Source: Actinokineospora inagensis DSM 44258 (GTDB taxonomy: Bacteria > Actinomycetota > Actinomycetes > Mycobacteriales > Pseudonocardiaceae). From it: a DNA stretch of 64,000 bases. Below, in pieces: positions 557 to 51,345 of this stretch. The stretch is taken from contig NZ_AXWW01000027.1 of assembly GCF_000482865.1 (NCBI RefSeq), positions 1-64,000 of the forward strand, in the 5' to 3' direction. Under the pieces are notes generated by a model. It made no database searches, was not told the origin of the DNA, and saw only the letters and a program-made list of their open reading frames with translations. Position 1 is the stretch's first letter. Each line of letters begins with the position of its first letter. The position numbers were made by a program, and so were the translations under genes.

Positions 557-1018
557 TCACCTGTTCGGGTCTTGTCGCTGGTCATCGGGGTTGCCCGGGG
601 TACGGCAGCAGAACTCGAGCCAGACGGCGGCCGCGATGAGCGCCGCGGCGCAGGCCGCACCGACCACGGCGCTGGCGATGTCGTGCTTCGCGGCGTCGAA
701 GTTCGCGCTCTCCGGGGCGACGTAGCCCAGCACACCGAGCCAGGCACCGAGCATGATCGAGCCGAGCAGGGACGAGGCCTTGGCCAGCGCGACGGCGCGG
801 GCGGCGGTGAGCGGTTGGACGGCTTTGTCCTCGGCCCGGATGCGGCCGCGCAGCGCGAAACCGAACAGCGCCTCGACGACGGCGAGCACCAATAGGGTGA
901 TTCCGGCGAGCCGCGGCAGCGGGGGCAGGACGCCGTAGAGCAGCCGCAGCGCGAGGTACACGACGACGGCGGTGACGAGACCGGCCGGGACGAGGTCGCG
1001 CGCCTTGGTGGGCTTCAT
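557..1018 (-). CDS. DUF3180 membrane protein
   Basis: This is a 153-residue protein with about four hydrophobic segments (roughly residues 10-30, 38-58, 78-102 and 114-134) and a charged, hydrophilic C-terminus. It matches the small DUF3180 family (Rv3605c-like) found directly after folK in actinobacteria. Its ATG overlaps the folK stop by four bases (ATGA), so translation is coupled to folate synthesis genes. The biochemical role is not known; a link to folate metabolism rests on gene order alone. Confidence 0.85.
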   Translation of the reverse strand: MKPTKARDLVPAGLVTAVVVYLALRLLYGVLPPLPRLAGITLLVLAVVEALFGFALRGRIRAEDKAVQPLTAARAVALAKASSLLGSIMLGAWLGVLGYVAPESANFDAAKHDIASAVVGAACAAALIAAAVWLEFCCRTPGNPDDQRQDPNR

Positions 1019-1500
1019 CGCAGCTCCAGGTCGTCGCGTCTGCGCACCCCGGCGGTGTCCAGGTCGGCCAGCAGGTCGTCGGCCCGGCCGCGACCGGGGA
1101 CGACGGCGTCGGGGTCGATGTCGAGCCAGGGGACCAACACCGTGGCGCGTTCGTGCGTGCCCGGGTGCGGCAGCAGCAACTCCGGGTCGTCACTGCGCAC
1201 GTCGTCCACGGTCACCACGTCCACATCGAGCGTCCGCGGCCCCCAGTGGAGTTCCCGGACTCGGCCTGCCGCGTTCTCTAGGGCCTGACCGCGTCGCAGC
1301 CACCCCCAGGCGTCGGTGGCTGGGTCATCCACCACACACACGGCGTTGAGGAAGTCGGGCTGGTCTGTCACGCCCCACGCCGCCGTCTCGTAGACCGGGG
1401 ATACCGCGACAAGAGCCGACGACAGCCCGTCGATCGCGATGCGCAGGTTGGCCAACCGGTCGCCCAGGTTCGACCCGAGCGAGAGCACGGCGCGGCTCAT
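1015..1500 (-). CDS. folK: 2-amino-4-hydroxy-6-hydroxymethyldihydropteridine diphosphokinase
   Basis: This 161-residue protein transfers pyrophosphate from ATP to hydroxymethyldihydropterin, giving the substrate of FolP. Its N-terminus [15 protein letters not shown] carries the SLGSN-GDR motif of HPPK. The family signature RTLDVDVV lies near residue 90, preceded by a W-G-P-R context. The length fits the family. The ATG at 1500 overlaps the end of folB by four bases, so the longer upstream open frame is not used. It is part of the coupled folE-folP-folB-folK order. Confidence 0.95.
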
Positions 1501-1858
1501 CGGCGGCGGGAGCGGCGCACGGTGACCGCGACGTCGGCGAAGGTCAGTGGGATCGGCGCGCTCGGCTTGTGCACAGTGACCTCGACGGCGTGCACGCGCT
1601 CGTCGGTCATCTCCCCCTCGGCGATCTGCGCGGCGACCGCCTCGATGAGGTCGCGTGGCGGTCCGGCGACCACGGCCGCGGCGCGCTCGGCGAGTTCGCC
1701 GTAGTGGACGGTGTGCCGCAGGTCGTCGGTGTCGGCCGCGCGACCGAGATCGATCCACAGCGTGACGTCGACCACGAACTCCTGCCCGTCGCGCTTCTCG
1801 TGCGCGAAGACGCCGTGGTTGCCGCGTACCCGCAGCCCGGTGAGGGTGATCCGGTCGG

Positions 1859-1862
<4 letters not shown>
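1497..1862 (-). CDS. folB: dihydroneopterin aldolase
   Basis: This 121-residue enzyme cleaves dihydroneopterin to hydroxymethyldihydropterin plus glycolaldehyde, the step before FolK. The chosen ATG (1862) gives [18 protein letters not shown], where the R-G-x-H-G-V-x-x-x-E pattern ([16 protein letters not shown]) is typical of FolB. The [11 protein letters not shown] motif near the C-terminus is also conserved ([13 protein letters not shown]). Start and stop overlap folP and folK by four bases each, so the gene is translationally coupled on both sides. Length is normal for the family, which forms octamers. Confidence 0.95.
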
Positions 1863-2688
<826 letters not shown>

Positions 2689-2692
<4 letters not shown>

Positions 2693-3807
2693 CGGCTCCG
2701 CCCGTTGATCAGTTGGATCGCCTCCGCCCGGGACGAGGCCGAGGACTTGAGCAGGCCGCGCAGCGCGGAGGTGGTGGTGCGGGCGCCGGGTTTGCGGATG
2801 CCGCGCATGGCCATGCAGAGGTGTTCGGCCTCGATGACCACGATCACCCCGCGCGGGTCCAGCTTGCGCACCAGCGCGTCGGCGATCTGCGAGGTGAGCC
2901 GCTCCTGCACCTGGGGGCGCTTGGCGTAGAGGTCGACCAGGCGGGCCAGTTTGGACAGTCCGGTGACCCGGCCCTTGTCGTTGGGGATGTAGCCGACGTG
3001 GGCGTGGCCGTGGAAGGGCACCAGGTGGTGTTCGCAGTTGTGCGTGAGGTGCCCGGCGATGAGGAACGTGGGGTGAGGATCGCAGGTGAAGCTGTGGACG
3101 GTGGTCTCGGCGGCCACCGCCCGGACCGACTCGACGCGGACCCACTGGGACTGGCCGAGCGTGGTCGTGTGCGCGGACCGGGCGAAACCGTGGCGCAGCA
3201 ACCACTCCGCGTCATCGTTCGGGGCCCCGACGGTGATGAGTTCGCGGGCGGGCGCGGCATGTCCGGTCCACTCCACATGGGACCCGGCGACGTGCGCGGC
3301 CTCGGTCCAGCCGTGCGGGGTGGCGAGCGGGTGGTCGGCGGTGACGGTGAACGACCCCGCCGCCGTGGTCACCTCGACCAGCGCCGCCGAGCGCTTCGCT
3401 GTGACACCAACCACAGTGGTCTCGGTCAGCCGACCGGCCACCAGCGTCCACAGTGGAGTGCCGACCCGGACGTCCCGCGCCGCCAGCGGCCCGCCGACCG
3501 CGTCGACCGGCTGGTCGGCGGGCACGCAGGTGGAGTACATCGGGATGTCGGTGACGAGGACGAGCTCCTCGTGGCTCTCGTCGAACGTCTTGTCCAGCAC
3601 GGTGTCCGGCTCGGTGTACAGGCCCGCGAAGAGTTCCGCGTACGCCCGCGCCACCCGGGCGGGTGTCTCCAGCAGACCGTCCCGGTCCGGGTCCTCGCCA
3701 CAGGCCAACAGGAGTTCGCGGATCGCCTTCTCCGCGCGGACCCGGTCGAACACCGGGGCCGGGCCGTCCTCACTGAACGTCCCGACCCCGTCACGGCTCA
3801 TCGTCAT
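2689..3807 (-). CDS. folE: GTP cyclohydrolase I (FolE) interrupted by a mini-intein
   Basis: The precursor has 372 residues. Residues 1-93 and 258-372 form a complete GTP cyclohydrolase I, which opens GTP to make dihydroneopterin triphosphate. Residues 94-257 are an intein (separate entry). Removing it joins IPMYST to [18 protein letters not shown], the normal FolE zinc site, giving a mature enzyme of about 208 residues. The second zinc cysteine is in the [11 protein letters not shown] segment. The start at 3807 is favoured by GGAGG five bases upstream; a longer open frame reaching into ftsH has no support. The gene follows ftsH after a 43 bp gap and is coupled to folP. Without splicing the zinc site cannot form, so folate synthesis should depend on intein excision. 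Confidence 0.95.
3037..3528 (-). other. Mini-intein in FolE, 164 residues, no homing endonuclease
   Basis: The inserted segment starts with Cys ([13 protein letters not shown]) and ends with HLTHN followed by Cys, the canonical Cys1 ... His-Asn | Cys+1 arrangement of a class 1 intein. Block B is TVTADHPL with the T-x-x-H pattern. Block F is [16 protein letters not shown], close to the usual hydrophobic-D/P-x-HxF-V-G pattern. No LAGLIDADG (DOD) motif or HNH is present. The linker between blocks B and F (about intein residues 75-135) is short, so only the HINT splicing domain remains. The +1 Cys is also the FolE zinc ligand. The insertion is in frame, and codon use looks like the host's, which suggests long residence. 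Confidence 0.93.
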
Positions 3808-3850: not shown

Positions 3851-6205
<2,355 letters not shown>

Positions 6206-15737: not shown

Positions 15738-15770
15738 GGCGTTCCTCCCAGAGCGTGCGGCGACGAGACC

Positions 15771-15856
15771 GGGGGCACCCAGGCGTTCGGTGCCGCTATC
15801 CGCTCCAGCCGCTCCCCGGTGGTTCTTCCACCCGCACACGCCAGTCACGACTCGGT
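15771..15856 (-). promoter_or_regulatory. ZTP (pfl) riboswitch upstream of glyA
   Basis: Read on the minus strand the leader holds TCGTGACTGGCG, then ACCACCGGGGAGC, then CCGAACGCCTGGG. These three blocks, in this order and spacing, are the conserved core of the pfl/ZTP riboswitch, which binds ZMP/ZTP, the alarmone of 10-formyl-THF shortage. glyA is a typical regulated gene. About 33 bases separate the last block from ATG. The GGGTGCCCCC segment at the 3' side could control access to the ribosome binding site or form a terminator; which of the two cannot be decided by eye. Confidence 0.88.
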
Positions 15857-15871
15857 ACCGGACCTTACCCT

Positions 15872-51249: not shown

Positions 51250-51345
51250 TATGGGACGACCCCCGCCAGGGGGGAGGGGCGGGGGTCGTCAACGGGTTCA
51301 GCCCCGGGGGGTCGGACTGAACCGGCCCGGCTCGCGGCCGGGGTA
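51250..51345 (-). ncRNA. 6C small RNA
   Basis: On the minus strand two hairpins follow each other. The first (51295-51323) has stem GGTTCAG/CTGAACC and a loop containing CCCCCC. The second (51255-51290) has a perfect 13 bp stem GACGACCCCCGCC/GGCGGGGGTCGTC and a loop CCTCCCCCCT. Two stems with runs of six C in the loops define the 6C RNA. In M. tuberculosis the 6C RNA (B11) lies between Rv3660c and Rv3661, and here it lies between their homologues on the same strand. A -10-like TACAGT lies just upstream, near 51352. Confidence 0.88.

Follow-up and report, generated by a model that had tools for sequence, protein, structure and literature searches.

How can a bacterium make GTP cyclohydrolase I when its folE gene is interrupted, in frame, directly before the codon of a zinc-ligand cysteine? 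This question is raised by a 64,000-nucleotide stretch of Actinokineospora inagensis DSM 44258 (contig NZ_AXWW01000027.1, positions 1 to 64,000, here called the window). Positions 2692-3807 of the minus strand form a single open, stop-free frame of 372 codons, which encodes a 372-residue FolE precursor. The Pfam model PF01227 and the NCBIfam FolE models match this precursor in two stretches, and between them lies an insert of 164 codons (precursor residues 94-257). The insert is very probably a class 1 mini-intein that sits at the codon for FolE's first zinc-ligand cysteine and has descended, with its endonuclease lost, from a family of homing inteins. Its position, its residues, its predicted fold, its relatives and the purifying selection acting on it are the basis of this reading. 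The gene is divided as follows.

3529..3807, minus strand: folE N-extein, 93 codons, ending ...IPMYST (PF01227 and FolE models)
3037..3528, minus strand: probable FolE mini-intein, 164 codons (relatives, residues, predicted model and fold searches)
2689..3036, minus strand: folE C-extein including the stop codon, beginning CEHHLV... (PF01227 and FolE models)

Removal of the insert restores a conserved host protein. The computed sizes, 17.2 kDa for the excised intein and 208 residues (22.9 kDa) for the joined FolE, agree with the roughly 17 kDa and 208 residues given in a preliminary description of this DNA, which had also held that excision restores the FolE zinc motif. In keeping with this, the joined protein aligns with the solved GTP cyclohydrolase I structure 11yz over 189 residues without a gap (E 4.9e-97). 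A second conserved cysteine follows 73 residues after Cys+1 in the joined protein, compared with 71 by the E. coli numbering, in which we take the zinc ligands to be Cys110, His113 and Cys181. The ratio of nonsynonymous to synonymous substitution rates (dN/dS), estimated for 10 pairs among five Actinokineospora, is 0.15-0.36 for the intein and 0.03-0.20 for the exteins. An assembly artefact was rejected, as the same insert is present in 12 of 99 relatives.

All of the splicing residues listed in the preliminary description were found intact and invariant among the relatives, at the following places.

3526..3528, minus strand: Cys1, first splicing nucleophile (invariant in 55/55; also read directly)
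3331..3342, minus strand: block B T-x-x-H, with T63 and H66 (invariant in 55/55)
3208..3261, minus strand: short linker, about residues 90-107, where full-length relatives hold the LAGLIDADG endonuclease (alignment; low model confidence)
3064..3102, minus strand: block F, residues 143-155, with the invariant Cys149 at 3082-3084 (residue alignment)
3037..3042, minus strand: terminal His163-Asn164, block G (invariant in 55/55)
3034..3036, minus strand: Cys+1, the second nucleophile and, after joining, the first FolE zinc ligand (invariant in the 51/51 rows that include Cys+1)

The position and the splicing residues are identical in 54 other inteins within FolE, and chance is thereby excluded. 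These counts leave out L083 and L101, in which the start of the intein is unreadable, the 19 Streptomyces loci described below, whose folE has no insert, and L109, whose frame length and match values are the same as those of L108 and which was also kept out of the intein tree. Fold searches assign the insert the Hint (horseshoe) fold, which together with Cys1, TxxH, the His-Asn end and Cys+1 places it in class 1. The earlier proposal that the +1 cysteine serves both as splicing nucleophile and as zinc ligand is supported. Class 3 inteins lack Cys1 and carry a W-C-T set in blocks B, F and G; Cys1 is present in 55/55 of the FolE inteins, so that this class does not apply. The Hint fold and the same set of residues are shared with the Ssp DnaB M86, Npu DnaB and Mtu RecA mini-inteins. 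The window intein differs from these in its host, its insertion site and its invariant block F Cys149, and its sequence identity to solved class 1 mini-inteins is 12-19% in the best rows. Full-length FolE inteins resemble TliVMA, PhoVMA and PI-SceI, with a LAGLIDADG domain set within the Hint domain, as judged by profile and model matches. The window intein, unlike these three, has no endonuclease, as had been noted from the sequence: only the short linker stands at the LAGLIDADG place, and this copy does not itself qualify as a mobile intein. A search of the window genome with PF14890 for other inteins gave two sub-threshold matches.

According to the proposed mechanism, the precursor would be translated whole, Cys1 would attack the Thr-Cys junction, and the N-terminal part would then pass to Cys+1. 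Cyclisation of Asn164 beside His163 would release the 17 kDa intein and leave a joined 208-residue FolE that carries the C-E-H-H zinc motif. The family as a whole would be a homing intein of one FolE codon that spread between lineages, with phages as one likely carrier, and whose LAGLIDADG domain may have been lost in several lines. In vivo splicing, homing and phage transfer are what we infer from the comparisons reported here.

The distribution of the insert is patchy. Among the 12 carriers in the 99 relatives, the short form occurs in 6 of 15 congeners (other Actinokineospora) and in 2 other genomes, while 4 others have a longer insert; the same folE site is empty in 9 of the 15 congeners. 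Within the taxonomic family the intein was found, at one place each, in 38 of 346 genomes from 13 of 46 genera, the window included. A scan of a genome collection returned 73 loci, comprising 52 complete inteins within folE, 2 that are truncated or cannot be read, and the 19 Streptomyces loci. The 52 include Pseudonocardiaceae, other actinobacteria, Rubrobacter, Ktedonosporobacter, Rokubacteria, Methylomirabilis, Gemmatimonadetes, a planctomycete, Elusimicrobia, Nitrospira/Nitrospiraceae and a deltaproteobacterium. Many of these genomes are bins from metagenomes, in which contigs may have been assigned wrongly. Their lengths fall into 163-192 residues (17/52) and 296-339 residues (35/52), and the 296-residue form at L066 is partly shrunken. 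LAGLIDADG_3 was matched in the two full-length inteins scanned, over the cut-off in one and just under it in the other, and the LAGLIDADG domain of the full-length forms aligns to the position of the window linker.

In a tree of neighbouring genes, the window genome and five congeners are close, with one empty genome (G012) placed inside the group with weak support, and A. iranica stands apart with a different intein. Vertical descent fits only this close group. The preliminary description had suggested that the intein is inherited vertically or is a relic. The relic of a mobile intein holds, while merely vertical inheritance does not, given the patchy presence, the several phyla, the viral contigs and the relatives with LAGLIDADG. 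It had also named, as evidence against its reading, relatives that keep the insert with Cys1 or Asn lost; none of the 55 inteins inside folE is of this kind, and such losses occur only outside folE, in the Streptomyces derivatives.

In IMG/VR, only three contigs (L108, L109 and L110) carry the FolE intein, all in the full-length form. Matches to queuine tRNA-ribosyltransferase are found beside the gene in both L108 and L110, together with QueC and ParB-like proteins in L110 and SbcC/SbcD matches in L108. Phage gene sets for 7-deazaguanine are known; the neighbourhood of L108 and L110 fits them and offers a vehicle. In a phage collection, 392 records match the FolE precursor and none covers 80% of it at one place, a search in which an insert of unlike sequence is not visible. 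With a full-length FolE intein, that collection yielded only 8 mycobacteriophage records, matched in portal proteins at 29% identity.

A Rubrobacter genome bin (L099:2743-5334) has FolE matches in three stretches and two inserts, one per zinc-ligand cysteine. The second insert, read by eye, is flanked by EAEHLC... and ...GN|CMTMRG, which is the other zinc cysteine, and ends in Gly-Asn, with a penultimate Gly instead of His.

Why has an intein without endonuclease persisted in the window genome and five congeners? One explanation is regulatory: zinc or oxidation at Cys1, Cys149 or Cys+1 would hold splicing back, folate synthesis would follow zinc or redox state, and the mini-intein would be kept for this purpose. 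The +1 cysteine becomes a zinc ligand after splicing, and Cys149 is invariant in 55/55 inteins and lost in 9/9 splicing-dead derivatives. Passages of PMC7360933 describe how zinc bound at the initiating nucleophile, a catalytic cysteine, inhibits the class 3 mycobacterial DnaB intein, a precedent that makes the zinc idea reasonable for FolE. That published case, however, concerns another intein, and the presence in 38/346 genomes with 9/15 empty congeners does not suggest a needed switch. Clean loss of an intein from a zinc-site codon is hard, so persistence requires no benefit. Within the sequences, invariant Cys149 is the only feature that would point to a condition-dependent intein. Zinc or redox control is possible and is not needed to explain persistence; as the reason for which the mini-intein is kept, we consider it improbable.

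Several points weigh against the reading of the insert as a splicing remnant of a homing family. Searched alone, the insert stays below all Pfam cut-offs (best Vint, E 0.028; Intein_splicing, E 0.26), and no NCBIfam model matches it, so family libraries alone would miss it; it is identified through its relatives and fold. The number of endonuclease losses is uncertain because two intein trees differ, both drawn without support values: the splicing-domain tree intermingles short and full-length inteins (Crossiella and Prauserella are examples), and the whole-alignment tree brings most of the short ones together. In addition, the window genome contains two FolE2-family genes over the Pfam cut-off, so that folE could in principle be inactive. 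At L062 (Amycolatopsis sp. 2-2) a folE with a full-length intein is frameshifted, its N-extein being split over two frames, and the genome has a second folE at another place; the gene can thus decay where a spare exists. The two FolE2-family genes lie on other contigs of the window genome.

L033, 1474-2253: FolE2-family gene
L034, 1501-2427: FolE2-family gene

These genes give substance to a second alternative, in which the insert has lost splicing in the window strain, FolE does not function and the folate precursor comes from FolE2. A second intact folE had been named beforehand as a serious objection. No second PF01227 gene was found in the window genome, so the objection holds only through the FolE2-family genes, which are absent from all 12 intein-bearing relatives and were found in 3 of the 99 relatives searched. 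Because of them, folate need not depend on splicing in the window strain, and auxotrophy may not show there. Both proteins, however, fall below the NCBIfam FolE2 cut-off and one gene adjoins queC, which suggests other pathways; all splicing residues are present in the window intein; and dN/dS of its intein and exteins is well under 1 against four congeners. This alternative is accordingly judged very unlikely. FolE2 was also considered as a zinc-free spare that goes along with the intein, an idea rejected because 0/12 carriers have FolE2.

Among the relatives, no additional FolE match was found in 10 of the 12 carriers, of which G043 has a genome completeness of 86%; A. iranica has a second folE and another carrier, G015, has further FolE matches. 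With a sole detected GTP cyclohydrolase I, folate in these ten seems to depend on splicing, as far as their gene content tells; if the zinc-site insert failed to splice, they would have no such enzyme, unless folate is imported. The remaining alternative, a hedgehog- or BIL-like Hint domain that cleaves without joining the halves, finds an echo in the Hint domains 6y75, 2lwy and 1at0 listed by the fold searches and in Vint as best Pfam match, and can nearly be dismissed, since His-Asn and Cys+1 never vary at the downstream junction, the two halves of one enzyme are in frame, and mere cleavage would destroy the only FolE detected in 10/12 carriers.

A splicing mini-intein would make FolE a new intein host: a core enzyme of folate synthesis whose splicing nucleophile turns into a zinc ligand of the active site. 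The literature search is in line with the expectation that FolE does not figure among the usual hosts; it returned no paper on intein and FolE together (supplementary tables, subscription journals and InBase lay outside its scope); in the passages of PMC3322345 concerned, intein and GTP cyclohydrolase are both mentioned, unrelated to each other. FolE is thus an intein host without a description in the literature searched, while the kind of intein is itself known. The naturally endonuclease-free FolE inteins are candidates for protein engineering. A graded series exists at one codon, from full homing intein through shrunken endonuclease and mini-intein to free-standing nuclease, so that the homing intein life cycle can be followed in natural genomes.

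The last member of this series comes from Streptomyces. None of the 19 Streptomyces loci has an interrupted folE. Shortly after the folE stop an intein-like frame begins, which where intact runs to about 330 residues; at one locus, L107, the locus script found no derivative frame.

L077, 2989-3978: free-standing, splicing-dead derivative of the FolE intein with LAGLIDADG motifs (also at L084, L087, L089-L098, L100 and L103-L106)

In nine aligned derivatives Gly occupies residue 1, the block B His has changed to Phe, Leu or Gln, and Cys149 has changed to Leu or Val. The terminal His-Asn is missing, but the two LAGLIDADG motifs are kept. Family libraries gave only LAGLIDADG_3, below the cut-off. 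The predicted model (predicted local distance difference test score, pLDDT, 93.3) matches the TliVMA and PI-SceI inteins. In a midpoint-rooted tree the derivatives make up a single cluster adjacent to the FolE inteins of actinobacteria. They occur in 32 of 295 genomes, 18 near full length and stop-free, 1 with one stop and 13 as fragments, and dN/dS is 0.11-0.22 in eight pairs of intact copies.

These elements resemble the yeast WHO elements and HO endonuclease (PMC7282813) in being free-standing, derived from an intein and placed downstream of an essential host gene with a replaced 3' end. As there, the nuclease gene has neither exteins nor a splicing end motif (9/9 aligned). Unlike WHO and HO, the Streptomyces derivative is bacterial, has no zinc-finger domain fused to its intein part (the protein ends with the Hint part), and no extra folE fragment was found beside it.

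The adjoining folE differs in carriers. All 31 carrier folE genes, which include neighbours of decayed derivatives and were drawn from two overlapping genome sets, have a non-S-T-C site, mostly S-L-C-E-H-H. In readable genomes without the derivative, sampled regardless of allele, S-T-C-E-H-H is found in 12/16, and 2 of the other 4 hold leader remnants. The S-L-type DNA pattern occurs in 26/32 carriers versus 48/263 others (Fisher p 1.5e-12), one of the 26 matches (G307) being at another locus than its derivative fragment. The allele and leader-motif comparisons exclude duplicate folE sequences and any Streptomyces locus in which the script could read no folE. In the 5' part, a stretch of only 108 bases that limits power, the allele groups show almost no net divergence (222/1000 permutations as large). 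The divergence is clear from 38 codons ahead of the site onward, through to the end (0/1000 permutations); as the genomes are related, these counts are not strict probabilities. Protein identity shows the same step along folE. The 3' tree splits the allele groups exactly, while the 5' tree misplaces 8/56. These data are consistent with a host gene whose 3' end was exchanged, as in the yeast WHO model in the same passages of PMC7282813. The breakpoint is not sharp: on the 5' side, the scanned segment at -24 is again undifferentiated though the preceding one at -38 is differentiated.

Within 150 bases past the folE stop, the motif TGTC[AG]GTG-N8-TANNNT is found in 18/31 carriers, 0/13 non-carriers of the same allele (9 of the 13 picked through the S-L DNA pattern and hence not a random sample) and 0/12 S-T-type genomes. 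Counting both strands, the 467,490 bases of these loci contain it 30 times. The RecA-NDp consensus is known, and the motif resembles this actinobacterial DNA-damage promoter. A primer beside a gene with a RecA-NDp-type promoter shows the same elements and spacing in passages of PMC5087735, and RecA-NDp is linked to PafBC in part of PMC6789036. A hairpin starts within the -10 box and extends over the purine-rich bases that precede the start codon. For the leader alignment, stretches were picked by hand from 20 sequences. Nine sequences were folded, and each proved more stable than every one of its shuffled versions (z -3.5 to -6.8). The T4 endonuclease genes I-TevI and segB have the same layout according to passages of PMC2988022, a promoter-like motif overlapping a hairpin over the ribosome site, although there the promoter is a phage late promoter. 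The leader would act as promoter and hairpin.

Taken together, the balance tips modestly towards the derivative being a bacterial counterpart of WHO/HO, which would have left the frame, lost splicing and kept LAGLIDADG, and which would sit just downstream of an uninterrupted folE with a distinct, presumably cleavage-resistant 3' allele that would travel along with it, with a damage-type promoter motif and an I-TevI-like hairpin formed only by read-through transcripts. If true, the route to the yeast mating-type switching enzyme has a directly testable bacterial parallel.

Around folE, the window contains the following further features.

1015..2689, minus strand: folP, folB and folK, downstream of folE (NCBIfam)
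3851..6205, minus strand: ftsH, upstream of folE (NCBIfam)
15770-15858, minus strand: ZTP riboswitch, directly upstream of glyA
51251-51326, minus strand: 6C RNA motif

The ZTP riboswitch reported earlier for this window is real; it lies about 12 kb from folE and is ordinary in its place before glyA.
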